Shown here piece by piece: positions 56,389 through 64,000 of a stretch of 64,000 nucleotides of DNA. The stretch lies in contig JAKVBU010000014.1 in NCBI GenBank assembly GCA_022446885.1, positions 1 to 64,000 on the forward strand. The letters are read 5' to 3'. How positions within the stretch are numbered: position 1 is the stretch's first letter; each line of letters begins with the position of its first letter. A model generated the notes under the pieces. The model did not search any database. It had not been told where the DNA came from and saw only the letters and a list, made by a program, of their open reading frames with translations. The position numbers were made by a program, and so were the translations under genes. This stretch comes from Phycisphaerales bacterium (GTDB lineage Bacteria; Planctomycetota; Phycisphaerae; Phycisphaerales; SM1A02).

Positions 56389-59300
56389 ATGCTGCGCGCC
56401 ATGCTTCCCGCCGCCCTGACAGCGGTGATCTGTTTGCCGACCATTGCAGATGATCCGGCCCCGAGGCCCAATGGGCCGTTTCAACGGGCCCATCGCTGCC
56501 ACGCGCTGACCGGCGCCGATGTCATTGTCCGCCCCGGCGAGGTGATCGAGGATGCCACCATCGTCGTTCGCGACGGCGTGATCGAGGCCGTAGGAACGGA
56601 CGTGACGATTCCACCAGACGCAAGGCTCTGGCCCTGCGACGACCTCGTCGTGCATGCAGGGTTTATCGAACCGGCTCGATTGATCGACGTCGATCACGAA
56701 GCCGGCGCTGGCACACATTGGAACGGCATGATCCACCCGCAGACGGATCTGGCCACGGCGCATGGCGGCTCTCTAGGTGAGAGCGACATCAAGGCGCTGC
56801 GGGAGGCGGGATGGTGCGTGGTCGCCGTCCATCCGGGCAATGGCATTCTGCGGGGCACTGGCACCATCACGACGACCGACGAGGCTGCCAGGCACCGCCT
56901 GCAGTACGAAGGTCTGCTTCCCCAATGCGCCGGCACTGATCGGGGCGGCTGGGGCGGTGGCTCCGGGCCGGGGTCTCTCATGGGCGCCTTGGCGCTCATG
57001 CGACAGGTGCTCATGGATGCGCGTTGGCAGGCGGCCGCCGAGTCTGCAGCTCAACGCAACAGACTTGAGCCACCGGCGCGGCGAGATGATCTGGCGGCGC
57101 TGTTGTCCGCCTCACTGGGTGAGCATCCGATGCTCTTTGAGACCGACGATGTGAAGGATGCCATGCGAGCAGGCGCCCTTGCGGATGAACTCGGGCTCGA
57201 CATCTGGATTCGAGGCAACGGAACCGAGTACCGCGACCTCGACGGAATCGCCTCGCTGAACGCGCCTGTGATCGTGCCGGTGAAGTACCCCGATCGCCCC
57301 AAACTCGACACGATCGATGCCGCCCAGCGAACATCCCTGCGCACGCTGCAGGCTTGGGAGCAGGCACCGACCAATTTACGACGACTGCGTGATGCAGGCA
57401 TCCGAACTGTCGTGACAAGCGATGGCCTCGCCCCCGACAAGGTTGTCGGAGCGTTGCGAGGGGCCATCTCTGCAGGACTGACACCAGATCAGGCACTGGC
57501 GGCCGTAACAACCCAGCCGGCCAGCCTGCTGGGAATCGACGGACGATGCGGCACCATCGAACCGGGCAAAGCGGCCCATCTGGTTGTGCGCAGCGATGCA
57601 CCCTTTGAGAAGGATGCCAAGATCAAGAGCGTCTGGGTTGGTGGACGGCCTACGGAATTGAATCCCGATCCACTCGTCTCGATGAAGAGCCAAGGTGTCC
57701 TGCACATCGGCGACCACAGGGCCCCAGCAGAGGTAGACACCGACAAGAAGTCAATCTCGCTCACGCTCGCGGACGAGACCAAGGTGAAGGCCAAGGCCTT
57801 CAACCGCACGGGCCATCGAATCAGCGCAGCGGTAGATGGCCGGCTGCTGGGCGAGACCAATTGGGTTCGACTGGCGGGGGTCATCACGGACAAGGGCATT
57901 ACAGGCCGCGCTGTGCGGCCCGACGGCACCAGCCTGCCGATGTCCTTCGCACTCACGGACGAGGTCGAAAGCGAGGATGCCACTCCCGATGAGCAGCCGG
58001 TTGAGGTTGCGGAGCGTGAAGATGCTGATCCCGTCGCCGGCATCTGGATTGGCCAGTTGGAGATCCCCGGCGCCGAGTTCGCGCCCCCATTCCGACTCGA
58101 ACTTCAGCGAGATGGGGCGCAGGTAACAGGCACGATCGACATCATGGACTCTCAGATGCCGGTGGAAGATGCCCGTTGGAACGAAGCTGACGGCACGCTG
58201 CGAATCTCCCGCGGCCTCCCGGGTGGCGGCGAGGCCAGCTTCAATGCAACGATCACCGGCAATGCCATGGTCGGCACCGCGATCGGGCCCATGGGCGAAG
58301 CGCCGCTCTCGGCATCACGAGAGGACGCTCCTGAAGCCGGTGACGAGACTTCAGAAGACGAACCAGAAGCAGATGTCCGCTATGCCGGCATCCCCGAAGC
58401 AGTCCCTTTTCCACTTGGTGCTCGCGGTCGCTTCTCACCAGTAGAGCCCCAAGACGTACGCATCGAGAACGCCACGCTCTGGACCTGCGGCCCTCATGGC
58501 CTGATCGAGGATGGATGCATCGTGGTCCGAGATGGTCTGCTCGATTACGTGGGGCCGATTCACACGGCCCCAAAGTCAAATGGGGAGCGTGTCATCGACG
58601 CCGAGGGCATGCATGTCACGCCTGGCCTCATCGACTGTCATAGTCACACTGGTATCAGCGGCGGCGTGAACGAATTCAGCAACGCCTGCACAGCGCACGT
58701 AGGCATCGGCGATGTGGTCGCTGGCGACGACATGAACTGGTATCGGCAATTGGCCGGTGGCCTTACAGCGGCGAACCAGTTGCACGGTAGTGCCAACCCC
58801 ATTGGTGGTCGCAACAGTGTGGTGAAGTTGCGATGGGGGCGTCCGGCTCGGGCCTTCCCTGTAGAAGGTGCGCCTACCGGCATCAAGTTTGCGCTGGGTG
58901 AGAATGTCAAGCGATCAAGCGGCCGCTATCCGGACACCCGCATGGGTGTCGAGTCGTTCATCCGCGATCGATTCGCGGCCGCCTCGCACTACGCCGACAC
59001 ATGGGATCGATGGAATGGGCTGAGTGAAGAAGAGCAACTCAAGGAAATGCCTCCACGCTGGGACGCCAGACTGGAGACGCTGGCCGAGATCCTTGCTGGA
59101 GAGCGGCTGATTCACTGCCATTCCTATCGACAAGACGAGATTCTCGCTTTGCTGCGGACCTGCGAAGCGTACGGCGTGCGCATCGGCACGCTCCAGCACA
59201 TTCTCGAGGGCTACAAGGTGGCTGACGCGATCGCCGACCACGGCGCGGGCGCCAGTTCCTTCAGCGACTGGTGGGCGTACAAGGTTGAAGTGATGGATGC

Positions 59301-59844
59301 GATCCCCCACAACGGGTCGATCATGCATGACGTGGGTGTGGTCGTTTCGTTCAATTCCGACGACAGTGAACTGGCCACACGCATGAATGACGAAGCGGCC
59401 AAGGCTGTTCGATATGGCGGCGTCGCGCCCATGGAAGCGCTGAAGTTTGTCTGCCTGAACCCAGCACGGCAACTGGGCATTGATCATCTGACGGGATCGC
59501 TGGAGAAGGGGAAGGCCGCCGATCTGGCAATTTGGAACCACCCACCGCTGAGCTCATATGCCCGGTGCGAGCAGACATGGATTGATGGTGCGCCCGTCTT
59601 CACACGGGCCGACGATGAAGCGATGAAGCAGCGTGACCGCGCCGAGCGAGCACGCCTTGTCGAGTTGATCCTGGCGCAGAGCCTGGGGAAGCCACCGTCG
59701 CCTCCCGATCCGGGTGAGTCTGAAACGACGACTGCATGGGTCAACCCCTATCACCAAGTCGAAGATCACCGGGGTGTTTGCGGCGGCCACGCCCCCGCTG
59801 ATGACCAGGCCACTGCCGTGCACACGCACGAGGAGGTGCACTGA
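56389..59844 (+). CDS. Exported double-domain amidohydrolase
   Basis: A 1151-residue protein with a signal peptide (LRAMLPAALTAVICLPTIA). It has two amidohydrolase-type halves. In the first (about 40-430) the metal HxH is absent; the strand reads VVHAGFIEPARLIDVD. In the second (about 680-1110) HVTPGLIDCHSHTGISGG carries the HxH, RLIHCHSYRQDEIL and TLQHILEG give further histidines, and SFNSDDSELATRM the final aspartate. A beta-domain (WIGQLEIPGAEFAPPFRLEL, about 545-640) separates them. Imidazolonepropionase-like and peptide-degrading amidohydrolases share this core. It overlaps the next gene as TGATG. Confidence 0.85.
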   Translation: MLRAMLPAALTAVICLPTIADDPAPRPNGPFQRAHRCHALTGADVIVRPGEVIEDATIVVRDGVIEAVGTDVTIPPDARLWPCDDLVVHAGFIEPARLIDVDHEAGAGTHWNGMIHPQTDLATAHGGSLGESDIKALREAGWCVVAVHPGNGILRGTGTITTTDEAARHRLQYEGLLPQCAGTDRGGWGGGSGPGSLMGALALMRQVLMDARWQAAAESAAQRNRLEPPARRDDLAALLSASLGEHPMLFETDDVKDAMRAGALADELGLDIWIRGNGTEYRDLDGIASLNAPVIVPVKYPDRPKLDTIDAAQRTSLRTLQAWEQAPTNLRRLRDAGIRTVVTSDGLAPDKVVGALRGAISAGLTPDQALAAVTTQPASLLGIDGRCGTIEPGKAAHLVVRSDAPFEKDAKIKSVWVGGRPTELNPDPLVSMKSQGVLHIGDHRAPAEVDTDKKSISLTLADETKVKAKAFNRTGHRISAAVDGRLLGETNWVRLAGVITDKGITGRAVRPDGTSLPMSFALTDEVESEDATPDEQPVEVAEREDADPVAGIWIGQLEIPGAEFAPPFRLELQRDGAQVTGTIDIMDSQMPVEDARWNEADGTLRISRGLPGGGEASFNATITGNAMVGTAIGPMGEAPLSASREDAPEAGDETSEDEPEADVRYAGIPEAVPFPLGARGRFSPVEPQDVRIENATLWTCGPHGLIEDGCIVVRDGLLDYVGPIHTAPKSNGERVIDAEGMHVTPGLIDCHSHTGISGGVNEFSNACTAHVGIGDVVAGDDMNWYRQLAGGLTAANQLHGSANPIGGRNSVVKLRWGRPARAFPVEGAPTGIKFALGENVKRSSGRYPDTRMGVESFIRDRFAAASHYADTWDRWNGLSEEEQLKEMPPRWDARLETLAEILAGERLIHCHSYRQDEILALLRTCEAYGVRIGTLQHILEGYKVADAIADHGAGASSFSDWWAYKVEVMDAIPHNGSIMHDVGVVVSFNSDDSELATRMNDEAAKAVRYGGVAPMEALKFVCLNPARQLGIDHLTGSLEKGKAADLAIWNHPPLSSYARCEQTWIDGAPVFTRADDEAMKQRDRAERARLVELILAQSLGKPPSPPDPGESETTTAWVNPYHQVEDHRGVCGGHAPADDQATAVHTHEEVH

Positions 59845-61172
59845 TGCGAGTAGCCACAAGAACCGCACTGATCGTCGCCATGTCGCTGGCGTCCCTTGCA
59901 TCGGTCGCTCAGGCTCAGTCGCGCCAGGTGCCCGGCGCCGACCAGGATGGCCCACTGCTCTTCAAGGATGCGGTGATCCACCCGGTCAGTAGCCCGATGA
60001 TTGAGCAGGGTTGGATGCTTGTTGAAGACGGCCGTATCAGCGCCATCGGCGGTGGCGAGTTGCCCCGTGGCACTCGCTCACGTGTGATCAACCTGAATGG
60101 ACGCCATGTCTATCCGGGGCTTGTCGCTGCTGATTCGCTGCTGGGCCTGTCAGAGACGGGCGCTGTCGATGTCACCCACGACTACGACGAGCAAGGCTCC
60201 ATTACGCCCGAAGCGCGGGCGGTCGTTGCGATCAACCCCGACAGCGACATCATTCCCGTCACACGGCAGGCGGGCATTCTCACGGCCCTTGTCGTGCCCA
60301 GTGGAGGCCGACTGCCCGGCAAGGCTGCAGCCATTCGGCTCGATGGCTGGACGTGGGAGGACCTCGCCATCGAGGGTGACGCCGGGCTCGTCATCGAATG
60401 GCCGGGCACTGAACGCAGCGGCTGGGGGCGGCGAGGCGGCGGAGGCGGTGCAACCAACAGCGGCGCCGATCGGAACATCGAGGAATTGAACCGGACCTTC
60501 GACGAAGCGCAAGCTTGGCTCAACGCCCGCCAGGCCGATCCAGCCTTGCCGCTCGACAGCCGGTGGGCTGCGATGGCCCCTGCCATCGAGGGCACTCAGC
60601 CGGTGTTCATCAAGGCCTCGACAGCTGGGCAGATTGCGACGGCTGTGGCGTGGGCAAAGGGCCGCAATCTCGATGCTGTGATCGTGGGCGGCGAGGAAGC
60701 AGACCGCGTGGCCAACATTCTGATTGAGGCGGATGTACCAGTAGTCGTGCGAGGCACGCACCGCTATCCGGTGGCCCGCCACGAGGCTGTTGACGAGCCA
60801 CACACTCTGCCTCGGCGGCTGCGCGATCTGGGCGTTCGATTCTGCATCGCCCCACGCGACCGCCCCGCTCACCTGCGGAATCTGCCTCACCATGCCGCCA
60901 CCGCCGTGGCCAATGGACTGACGCCGGATGAAGGGCTCCGCAGCATCACCATCGACGCTGCCGAGATCATCGGCGTGGGCGATCGTCTGGGCTCATTGGA
61001 ACCGGGCAAGGCGGCCACCTTCATCGTGACCAACGGCGACCCGCTGGAGATGACCACTCAGGTGGAACAGGCCTACATCGACGGTCGAGCCGTCGAATTG
61101 GAGAGCCGCCAGAGCGAGTTGCGTGACAAGTATCGCGAGAAGTACACGCGACAGGGCCGCATCGCGTCCTGA
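59844..61172 (+). CDS. Exported amidohydrolase-like protein lacking metal ligands
   Basis: A 442-residue protein with signal peptide (VATRTALIVAMSLASLASV) and cleavage near AQAQ. Its beta-sandwich ends match amidohydrolases: LLFKDAVIHPVSSPMIEQ at the start and LGSLEPGKAATFIVTNGDPL at the end. But the first metal strand is VYPGLVAADSLLGL, without HxH, and no other metal histidines are in place. So it is probably inactive alone. It is co-translated with the double amidohydrolase, which suggests a heteromeric partner or a substrate-binding subunit. A glycine-rich stretch (WGRRGGGGGATN) lies near residue 200. Confidence 0.82.
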   Translation: MRVATRTALIVAMSLASLASVAQAQSRQVPGADQDGPLLFKDAVIHPVSSPMIEQGWMLVEDGRISAIGGGELPRGTRSRVINLNGRHVYPGLVAADSLLGLSETGAVDVTHDYDEQGSITPEARAVVAINPDSDIIPVTRQAGILTALVVPSGGRLPGKAAAIRLDGWTWEDLAIEGDAGLVIEWPGTERSGWGRRGGGGGATNSGADRNIEELNRTFDEAQAWLNARQADPALPLDSRWAAMAPAIEGTQPVFIKASTAGQIATAVAWAKGRNLDAVIVGGEEADRVANILIEADVPVVVRGTHRYPVARHEAVDEPHTLPRRLRDLGVRFCIAPRDRPAHLRNLPHHAATAVANGLTPDEGLRSITIDAAEIIGVGDRLGSLEPGKAATFIVTNGDPLEMTTQVEQAYIDGRAVELESRQSELRDKYREKYTRQGRIAS

Positions 61173-61189
61173 GTCGATATCTTGACCAC

Positions 61190-61385
61190 CGGAATGAGGT
61201 TCCGGAACATGAGCCAGCGGTTGGCCCATGCTCCGGCGAAGAGGAAAGTGCGGTTTCAGTCCGCCGCGGTGTCGCCGCCGTAGGGCCCCTCCCCAAGCAG
61301 GGGAGCAACCTGATCAGTGTCACTGCTCATGTGAGCGGGAAGACGATCAGGCCATGGGCCTCAGCCGGAAGACCTGCCCGTTCCC
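61190..61385 (+). promoter_or_regulatory. Cobalamin (B12) riboswitch
   Basis: The 3' end holds AGCCGGAAGACCTGCC (61363-61378), which matches the B12-box consensus closely. The core GAGGAAAGTGCGGTTTCAGT (from 61241), followed by the GTCCGCC and CGCGGTGTCGCC strings, matches the conserved GGGAA...CGGTG...AATCC region of cobalamin riboswitches. AGGT at 61197-61200 can pair with ACCT at 61372-61375 to close the P2-type helix. Order and spacing are right. It lies in the 250-base spacer before the PEP-CTERM-like gene and after the amidohydrolase pair. By precedent it would bind adenosyl- or another cobalamin and lower expression of the gene downstream. Confidence 0.8.
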
Positions 61386-61392
61386 CTGTCGC

Positions 61393-61417
61393 GCGCCGCG
61401 CACACGGCGCTCGGGAG
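61393..61417 (+). promoter_or_regulatory. GC hairpin and ribosome site between riboswitch and start
   Basis: GCGCCG (61393-61398) can pair with CGGCGC (61405-61410), leaving a six-base loop, immediately before CGGGAG (61412-61417), the ribosome site of the ATG at 61424. It could be the expression platform, acting on translation. There is no T-run for termination. Confidence 0.45.
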
Positions 61418-61423
61418 CACATC

Positions 61424-61984
61424 ATGTTGCGCATCTTCTGCATCGCGGCCACTGCGGCCATGTCCACGCCAGCAATCGCCGATTTGGTCATTGACGAATC
61501 GACGGGCGCAACGCTTGACCTCACGGCATCGGCCGGTAGTGGCGAGTTCACCGCATATGTCGTGATCGACTTCGAACACACCGGCGGTGGCTCCTTCGCC
61601 TTCTCCTACAGTTTCGACGGCGAGGCCACCGTGCACGATGCACTCTTTGCGTTGGTCGATCAAGGGCTCGACTACGCCTTTGACGACTTCGGCGAGTGGG
61701 GCATCTTCGCCGTCAACTTCGGTTGGGGAGGCGCAGTGGGCGACGCCCAGAACTACTGGGCTCACTCGCTGGTGACGCCCGATGGTTCAGGCACCGTCGA
61801 CTGGTCTGATGCCATGAGCAGTGTGGACACCACCTGGCTCTCCGATGGCCTGCTCAGCGGCTGGTACAACGGGTTCAACGACGACTACTCGGCGATCACC
61901 CCTTCGCTGCCGCTTACTGTTCCTACTCCAGGCGCGATCGGGCTGATCGGGTTGCTGGTGATTGGCAGCAGACGTCGCCGCTGA
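61424..61984 (+). CDS. Exported PEP-CTERM-like protein
   Basis: A 186-residue protein with a signal peptide (LRIFCIAATAAMSTPAIA), a beta-rich body of about 140 residues (SGEFTAYVVIDFEHTGGG; FSYSFDGEATVHDALFALVD) and the C-terminal sorting signal VPTPGAIGLIGLLVIGSRRRR read as VPTPG, a hydrophobic helix and an RRRR tail. This is the tripartite PEP-CTERM pattern recognised by exosortase, with P-T-P replacing P-E-P. The body has no domain I recognise; tryptophan- and aspartate-rich motifs suggest ligand binding. ATG at 61424 has GGGAG upstream. The cobalamin riboswitch upstream suggests a part in B12 acquisition. Confidence 0.8.
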   Translation: MLRIFCIAATAAMSTPAIADLVIDESTGATLDLTASAGSGEFTAYVVIDFEHTGGGSFAFSYSFDGEATVHDALFALVDQGLDYAFDDFGEWGIFAVNFGWGGAVGDAQNYWAHSLVTPDGSGTVDWSDAMSSVDTTWLSDGLLSGWYNGFNDDYSAITPSLPLTVPTPGAIGLIGLLVIGSRRRR

Positions 61985-61989
61985 TCAGA

Positions 61990-64000
61990 TCAGAACGTCC
62001 AGTTCGAGAGCAGCGTGATGAGATCGTGGATGTCCACGACGCCGTTGGTGTCGTAGTCATCCGGGCTGTACACCTGCCACTGTGACTGACCTGTGGTGTC
62101 ACCCCAGTGCTCGATGAGCTGAATCAGGTCATCTCGATCAACCAGGCCATCGAGATTGCCATCACCGGGCGTAGTCGCGAACACATGCAGCCACAAGCCG
62201 GTTTCATCGACGGACACCGATAGCTGGGCGCCATATTGCCACCCCCAGTCGTTGGCTATCTCAATACTGTCAAATGAGCCTGTGATGGCTCCAGTCATGA
62301 TCGGGCAGATCGTGCCCGCATGCAGGCCCTCGCTACTTTGGCCATTGGTGTGGTCCCCATCGCCGATGACGCTCAACTCAAGTGTTCCACCCAACTCAAT
62401 ATTGTCGGCTTGCACCATGCCCTGGCTGTGATACACGCCGCCAAACCTAATCGAGTGTTCTCCACCCTGAAAAGTGATCGAGTCACTGACAATCTTGACC
62501 TCGGGCTCGAGGGAGATCGTGCCTACAGAGATGGTCTGGGCCTGCAGGGTGGAGTCATCCTCAACAGTGACCCACCCGTTAGTTGCGGCCAGGGTGCTGG
62601 ACACGGCCAACTCGGCCCCATCAAACAGGTACAGTCCACCATCACACTGCAACCATGCCGTTGTCATCCGGGCTCCTGGCGCCGCGATCGAGAGATACCC
62701 GTCGGAAGCGACATCGGTGCCGCCGTTCACTGTCAGGTCAGCCTCTTCTTGCACAAAGACCACGTTGTCGGACACGGAGTCGCCTACGCCCTGACCCACC
62801 AACAGCCGCGATGACACAGTCACCGCTGCATCACCATAGAACCCCAGCGTGCCGTGATTGGAGTCGCTACCACCTCCAACTTGAATCTCACACTGCAGAT
62901 CAGATGCAGCACCGCTGTTCACATAAATGGCGGCCTCGCTGACTGCCTCAGCTGCTGGAATCTCCAGTGTGCCCGATGCAACCGAGATGTCGCCCTCCAC
63001 CCGCAAAGTGCCACCTCGCATGTCAAGCTGGCCAGCACGATCGATCCCCAATTCACCGCACGTAGCAGACGCGTTGTTGTTGATGATCAGCCCCCCATAC
63101 CCGGACAGGTCGATCTTGCCACCAACCTCGAGTCGCCCTTCATGGAGGCTGCAGTAGCCAAAGCTCTCATGGTCGCTCTCCCAATATCGACCGATGTTCA
63201 GATCTCCACTCACTGAGACCTTGCAGGCCCACCAGGAGGGATCGGCTGCACTGGGATCACCCACATCCATCCGCGAGATTGGAAGCGCGTTGGGACCAGC
63301 CCCAATCACAACATCGCCCAACACACTCAACTCGCCACGATGCACATCAGCCAGCATTGCGCCACCGGCAGATCCCAGCACCAGATCACCGCCGACGGTC
63401 ATGGTGGGATCGGCGACTGAGGTTGCATTCTCCGGCCGACGCATTGTGAGCCCCGTGATCACGCCGGCTGTCTGATGATGAAACTCGGCATTCGCCAGCA
63501 CGGTCATGTCGGCAGCCCCCTCGAGGACAAGCGATCCACCGTTCAGGGCTACAAGTGATCGCATCGTCGAGTAACTGCGATTGGTGTCATCTTCCACCCC
63601 ATCAAGATCGACGCTCGAAATCACAAGTTGAGCAGTGCTCTCCTCCCCTGCCCCGCCCAATGTGAGTGTGCCGTTGATGGCATTCATGGTCGCACCGTGC
63701 ACCAGTCGGATTGCCTCATCGGGTTCGGCGAACTCCCAACCAGATCGCAGATGCAGCCCCTCGTATGGGATTTTGAGAATCCCACCTCGCACTTCCGTTG
63801 TTCCCCTGAGGGTGAAGAAGTCAACATTGCCCGTCCACAAATCGAGGCCACTGCACACCAATGGGCCACTGACGTGCACCTGGGCGTAGTCACTGCCAGT
63901 CTCACAGCCAATGACGCCCTCGACACGAGTAGAGCCGTCGATCGCTGACATGAACGCGGCGGGTTCACTCTGCGATCCGCTCAAGAGAACGCTCCCATCA
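61990..64000 (-). CDS. Secreted beta-helix-like protein with dockerin-like C-terminus (5' end outside window)
   Basis: The frame runs off the right edge, so at least 669 residues are seen and the start is missing. Most of the protein is a series of short beta-strand repeats with VxGxLxIG/VGGDLVLG-type turns (TVGGDLVLGSAGGAML; LSVLGDVVIGAG; VSVSGDLNIGRY), as in autotransporter-like right-handed beta-helices. The C-terminus has two dockerin-like loops (DGNLDGLVDRDDLIQLIEHW; DTNGVVDIHDLITLLSNW). Likely an extracellular or surface protein. It converges with the PEP-CTERM-like gene, with five bases between the stops. Confidence 0.8.
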   Translation of the reverse strand, partial: DGSVLLSGSQSEPAAFMSAIDGSTRVEGVIGCETGSDYAQVHVSGPLVCSGLDLWTGNVDFFTLRGTTEVRGGILKIPYEGLHLRSGWEFAEPDEAIRLVHGATMNAINGTLTLGGAGEESTAQLVISSVDLDGVEDDTNRSYSTMRSLVALNGGSLVLEGAADMTVLANAEFHHQTAGVITGLTMRRPENATSVADPTMTVGGDLVLGSAGGAMLADVHRGELSVLGDVVIGAGPNALPISRMDVGDPSAADPSWWACKVSVSGDLNIGRYWESDHESFGYCSLHEGRLEVGGKIDLSGYGGLIINNNASATCGELGIDRAGQLDMRGGTLRVEGDISVASGTLEIPAAEAVSEAAIYVNSGAASDLQCEIQVGGGSDSNHGTLGFYGDAAVTVSSRLLVGQGVGDSVSDNVVFVQEEADLTVNGGTDVASDGYLSIAAPGARMTTAWLQCDGGLYLFDGAELAVSSTLAATNGWVTVEDDSTLQAQTISVGTISLEPEVKIVSDSITFQGGEHSIRFGGVYHSQGMVQADNIELGGTLELSVIGDGDHTNGQSSEGLHAGTICPIMTGAITGSFDSIEIANDWGWQYGAQLSVSVDETGLWLHVFATTPGDGNLDGLVDRDDLIQLIEHWGDTTGQSQWQVYSPDDYDTNGVVDIHDLITLLSNWTF

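Follow-up and report, generated by a model that had tools for sequence, protein, structure and literature searches.

Near the end of the 64,000-nucleotide stretch of Phycisphaerales DNA analyzed here (contig JAKVBU010000014.1, hereafter the window), a cobalamin riboswitch directly precedes a gene for a 186-residue exported protein. We consider it likely that this gene responds to vitamin B12 (cobalamin) and encodes a corrinoid-capture protein that is repressed by cobalamin, is anchored at the surface, and belongs, as a divergent member, to the transcobalamin-like clade of the SLBB (soluble-ligand-binding beta-grasp) superfamily; its ligand binding, repression, and surface location are properties that we infer from the evidence set out below. 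Marine planctomycetes probably use a riboswitch-controlled surface protein of this kind to catch B12 outside the cell, and the window protein offers a concrete, testable candidate for B12 acquisition by these abundant organisms, several of which have no detectable TonB receptor.

The only Rfam match above the gathering threshold returned by cmscan for the window is to the Cobalamin family, RF00174. It scores 56.6 bits against a gathering score of 31.5 (E = 2.2e-11) and spans the full length of the model (1–189). The initial annotation had recognized a cobalamin riboswitch from its motifs and proposed a covariance-model search; the match bears out that call, and the B12 box, the hairpin, the ribosome site, and the 186-residue open reading frame all lie where they had been placed (Table 1). 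Across 14 aligned homologous leaders, 97.6% of the cells in the hairpin stem are paired, compared with 15–44% in slid controls, and each of its six pairs shows a two-sided change in at least one sequence. Similar short hairpins stand between the aptamer and the start codon at many riboswitch-bearing loci of the protein family, often with a loop that begins CGCG. We relied on covariation because folding the entire leader by minimum free energy told us little (z = −1.5). A search for a kissing contact of loop L5 with the loop of the hairpin gave no convincing case. The hairpin is probably the expression platform. Its covariation and its position before the ribosome site would fit control of translation start and, as far as the leader sequences go, are consistent with a ligand-dependent mechanism. 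By analogy with other cobalamin riboswitches, scarcity of cobalamin would leave the ribosome site open and allow the protein to be made, whereas cobalamin bound to the aptamer would engage the hairpin by the ribosome site and lower translation.

The association of riboswitch and gene is widespread. The window protein and its homologs make up a single family (alignments A1 and A2, the latter with 67 sequences), which occurs, almost always in single copy, in 97 of the 251 genomes of the order. An Rfam scan of 80 further family loci, with riboswitches called at E ≤ 0.05, found a cobalamin-clan riboswitch directly upstream and on the same strand in 57 (19/20, 12/20, 11/20, and 15/20). The same order is present in other members of the genus (G002b and G001b), and among named marine Phycisphaerales metagenome-assembled genomes, the RF00174 gathering score is passed at 11 of 16 family loci; the contigs of these assemblies were scanned with the alignment of the window's clade, the wide family alignment being too diverse for this purpose. 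Because a genome carries only one or two such riboswitches, their adjacency to the family gene is not attributable to chance. The initial annotation had suggested looking for the arrangement in related genomes, where it is indeed conserved; of the two outcomes that it had named as refuting (absence of a covariance match, or of conservation in relatives), neither was observed.

The encoded protein has a hydrophobic N-terminus and ends in the tail VPTPGAIGLIGLLVIGSRRRR, in agreement with the signal peptide and VPTPG-helix-RRRR terminus described initially. The Pfam PEP-CTERM model matches 19 of the 67 family members at E ≤ 0.1 (best 1.3e-6), and the window's genome (G000), a 2.87-Mb assembly that is 97% complete, encodes an exosortase (PF09721, E = 4.6e-43). 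After export, exosortase may process the PEP-CTERM-like tail so that the protein is retained at the cell surface or in a surface matrix. A Pfam scan of the 67 members found no domain over the protein core, and the window protein alone gave no useful match to Pfam, NCBIfam, or PDB sequences. We attribute a nanobody match in the PDB sequence search (E = 0.0016) to chance similarity in a YW-rich stretch, and matches to Fibronectin-I and other Pfam families, each confined to a single family member, likewise to chance.

The pattern of the sequence had already suggested a DUF4430/transcobalamin beta fold ahead of all structure searches, so the Foldseek results serve as a test of that proposal rather than as an open-ended search. 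We built two AlphaFold2 models. The first, of the window protein, used the 67-sequence alignment and has a predicted local distance difference test score of 89.1 (≈97 in the core) and a predicted template modeling (TM) score of 0.81; the second represents a distant family member, with the window's clade excluded from its sequences. Against 350,542 PDB chains, transcobalamin, haptocorrin, intrinsic factor, and the DUF4430 protein 3u7z form an unbroken series of top matches for both models, at a probability of 0.98–1.00. This series comprises the first 16 matches for model 1 (best E = 4.3e-3) and the first 15 for model 2 (best E = 1.7e-3). TM scores to the isolated transcobalamin beta domain are 0.71–0.73 for the two models, including 0.72 to 5no0 for model 1 and 0.73 to 5np4 for model 2. 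Both models are predicted to share the order strand-strand-helix-(two strands)-strand-strand, that is, a beta-grasp with a beta-hairpin inserted after the helix; the transcobalamin-like SLBB clade is likewise defined by two strands, a helix, a hairpin, and the remaining strands (PMC1796856). Profile comparison with planctomycete DUF4430 proteins by HHalign gave probabilities of 90.8% (alignment A5) and 80.6% (A2) for full sequences and 77.2% and 75.3% for cores without the signal peptide. Control probabilities were at most 4.8% for 60 column-shuffled profiles and 0.2% for a reversed one. On these alignments the relation of the family to DUF4430 and transcobalamin appears to hold, with moderate rather than decisive strength. 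Together with the conserved riboswitch and the predicted fold, this comparison supports, as a prediction, the initial suggestion that the surface protein captures or binds a corrinoid.

Several observations weigh against this assignment. The Pfam DUF4430 model (PF14478) matches none of the 67 family members and nothing in 41 related genomes, in searches that detected their controls. The Foldseek E-values are modest, identity to the matched transcobalamin-family structures is only 6–19%, and the two models are not fully independent because they share sequences. The window protein itself scores 11.4 bits against the PEP-CTERM cut-off of 20.7 (E = 0.36). At ≈30% of the scanned family loci no riboswitch was detected, and many of the matches, while at E ≤ 0.05, fall slightly below the gathering score of the AdoCbl model RF01482. 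Most cobalamin contacts in transcobalamin are made through main-chain atoms (PMC1796856), so residue conservation would not reveal them in the window protein, in which W112 and W127 are conserved and a hairpin spans residues 82–101. The partner alpha/alpha toroid domain, which encloses B12 in transcobalamin, is absent, and beta-grasp domains serve many other purposes. The isolated beta domain of human transcobalamin does, however, bind cyanocobalamin without the alpha domain (PMC5599065), and a stand-alone domain can therefore be a binder.

The genomic setting indicates a need for B12. The window's genome encodes the methionine synthase MetH, a B12-binding protein of the methylmalonyl-CoA-mutase type, and two BtuF-type proteins. 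The TonB plug domain PF07715 was not found in this genome, in a search that detected its controls, nor in any of the three genomes of the genus; it is present in 19 of 41 relatives. B12 is thus needed where the usual outer-membrane receptor is undetected. A captured corrinoid might be handed to an outer-membrane route and then to periplasmic BtuF-like carriers.

The genome contains exactly two RF00174 riboswitches. The second, on contig C24 (L001:1501-3205 = G000:C24:18946-20650), precedes a gene for an exported protein of the PGxGxxxGYxxPxxALGxPxRFTG family with a dockerin-like tail (family A), followed by a pseudopilin-like gene, a pair that recurs in most relatives. Across the 41 relatives, 44 riboswitches were listed at E ≤ 0.001, and the first downstream gene was classed by eye. 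Most of them are followed by genes for exported proteins and not by genes with a known B12 role: family A (≈24), homologs of the window protein (11), beta-propellers (5), a BtuB-like TonB receptor (1), and unclear cases (3). We entertain the possibility, though we would not favor it, that these riboswitch-controlled exported proteins (the transcobalamin-beta-like family, family A with its pseudopilin-like neighbor, and the beta-propellers of related genomes) constitute a BtuB-independent route for the capture of B12 and its uptake over the outer membrane in planctomycetes without TonB receptors.

Individual loci vary in how these genes are combined. A single-riboswitch operon in G028 (contig C27, L043) carries the window-protein family, family A, and the pseudopilin in that order. 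Two other operons (G027, L143; G040, L142) have a riboswitch followed by a beta-propeller, a family-A-like exported protein, and a pseudopilin. At G010:C2:19844-22280, two tandem cobalamin riboswitches lie ≈2 kb apart, the first before family A and the pseudopilin and the next before the window-protein family.

Of the alternatives to corrinoid capture, the most serious, although an unlikely one, is that B12 regulates this surface protein without the protein itself binding corrinoids. It would then be structural or adhesive or recognize another ligand, and would be made at B12 shortage, for instance for attachment to B12-producing algae or particles. The diversity of beta-grasp functions, the unmapped ligand residues, the inclusion of matrix proteins in the PEP-CTERM class, and the family members at which the riboswitch goes undetected would all be compatible with such a role. 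What tips the balance toward binding is that, among all beta-grasp structures in the PDB, it is the transcobalamin family that leads both Foldseek searches, in agreement with the separate evidence of the riboswitch, and that the profile match is specifically to DUF4430. Alternatively, the riboswitch might stand here incidentally, as the decayed or read-through remainder of an older B12 gene. Its middling score and short leader could be cited in favor, but this idea is largely refuted by synteny across many genera, by the single-copy nature of the family, and by the hairpin, which covaries and is linked to the family gene's ribosome site; we regard it as extremely improbable.

A further arrangement retains corrinoid binding but divides it between two proteins: a different surface protein would hold the corrinoid and the beta-like domain would cap it. 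The exported protein of family A, under the other riboswitch, is a possible partner. The alpha and beta domains of transcobalamin assemble only with B12 (PMC5599065), the window's genome has both families, and the G028 operon places both under one riboswitch. No toroid domain is seen in family A, however, in which only the dockerin-like tail repeats are recognized; the genes for the two proteins are mostly separated, and in some genomes just one of them occurs. We therefore judge such a clamp improbable, less so than an incidental riboswitch, and retain capture by the window protein itself as the preferred reading.

Bacterial transcobalamin-like SLBB proteins, including those of planctomycetes, were proposed in 2007 to act as surface B12 scavengers (Burroughs et al. 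2007, PMC1796856), and planctomycetes are already listed among the holders of that clade. The window family differs from the described members in that it is unrecognized by the Pfam DUF4430 model, carries a PEP-CTERM-like tail instead of a Gram-positive anchor, and stands under direct cobalamin-riboswitch control; no CbiO or CbiQ neighbors are seen at the window locus. With this family the SLBB clade gains a divergent member that is riboswitch-controlled and has a tail of the exosortase type, and the 2007 proposal gains direct regulatory evidence. With animal transcobalamin, intrinsic factor, and haptocorrin (5np4, 2pmv, and 4kki), the window protein shares the predicted beta-domain fold (TM ≈0.72 to the isolated transcobalamin domain); unlike them, it has no alpha/alpha toroid domain and a bacterial surface anchor, at ≈14% identity.

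Exported B12-capture proteins under cobalamin riboswitches have precedents with other folds. We take the signature IPR013424 to be that of PEP-CTERM. In the B12-binding DUF4465 family, it is carried by 88 of 824 sequences (PMC12751083), and B12 is bound by a DUF4465 protein from Mucisphaera calidilacus, a phycisphaera (PMC13398666). Like the window protein as predicted here, these BtuJ/DUF4465 proteins are exported, linked to riboswitches, and able to bind B12, and some of them end in PEP-CTERM tails, but DUF4465 is an augmented beta-jellyroll, and we rejected membership in that family because the Pfam scan gave no DUF4465 match in any of the 67 members. As a kind, a PEP-CTERM protein that binds B12 is consequently not entirely without precedent, which corrects the initial annotation, to which no such role was known. 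Bacteroides provides well-demonstrated cases of surface capture proteins controlled by cobalamin riboswitches (PMC6143338, PMC8941943, PMC12751083). BtuG and BtuH would share with the window protein riboswitch-regulated corrinoid capture at the surface; unlike it, they have other folds, lipid anchors, and a TonB-dependent partner in BtuB, whereas the window's genome has no TonB plug domain. A full-text literature search for cobalamin riboswitches joined with PEP-CTERM found nothing related, and the union of a cobalamin riboswitch, a PEP-CTERM-like surface anchor, and the predicted fold of animal B12 carriers is likewise a combination that we did not find in the literature searched.

Table 1 Features of the riboswitch-controlled locus in the window
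Feature	Coordinates	Strand	Basis
Cobalamin riboswitch aptamer, RF00174	61180..61394	+	cmscan; one of only two RF00174 matches in the genome
B12 box, 3′ part of the aptamer core, AGCCGGAAGACCTGCC	61363..61378	+	Sequence and Rfam alignment
Hairpin GCGCCG-CGCACA-CGGCGC, just 5′ of the ribosome site	61393..61410	+	Covarying stem
Shine-Dalgarno-like GGGAG	61413..61417	+	Sequence; 6 nt before the ATG at 61424
186-residue exported protein; predicted transcobalamin-beta/SLBB-like domain at about residues 30–150, PEP-CTERM-like C-terminus	61424..61984	+	Open reading frame, AlphaFold2, Foldseek
PEP-CTERM-like sorting tail, VPTPG-hydrophobic helix-RRRR	61919..61981	+	Sequence; model helix 169–184

The SCO2322 family (NF040672) gives weak matches to 33 of the 67 family members, lying in the three that were checked over the tryptophan-containing (WYW) region of the core, at ≈18 bits and thus far below that family's cut-off of 85 bits. 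These matches hint at a link between the window-protein family and an actinobacterial one. Upstream of the riboswitch, two adjoining genes (56389–61169) encode amidohydrolase-family proteins of 1151 and 442 residues; G002 likewise has the nearer of the two upstream, which makes the block syntenic. On the opposite strand, a convergent gene (61990–63984) encodes a large surface protein whose C-terminus weakly matches a GC-type dockerin domain.
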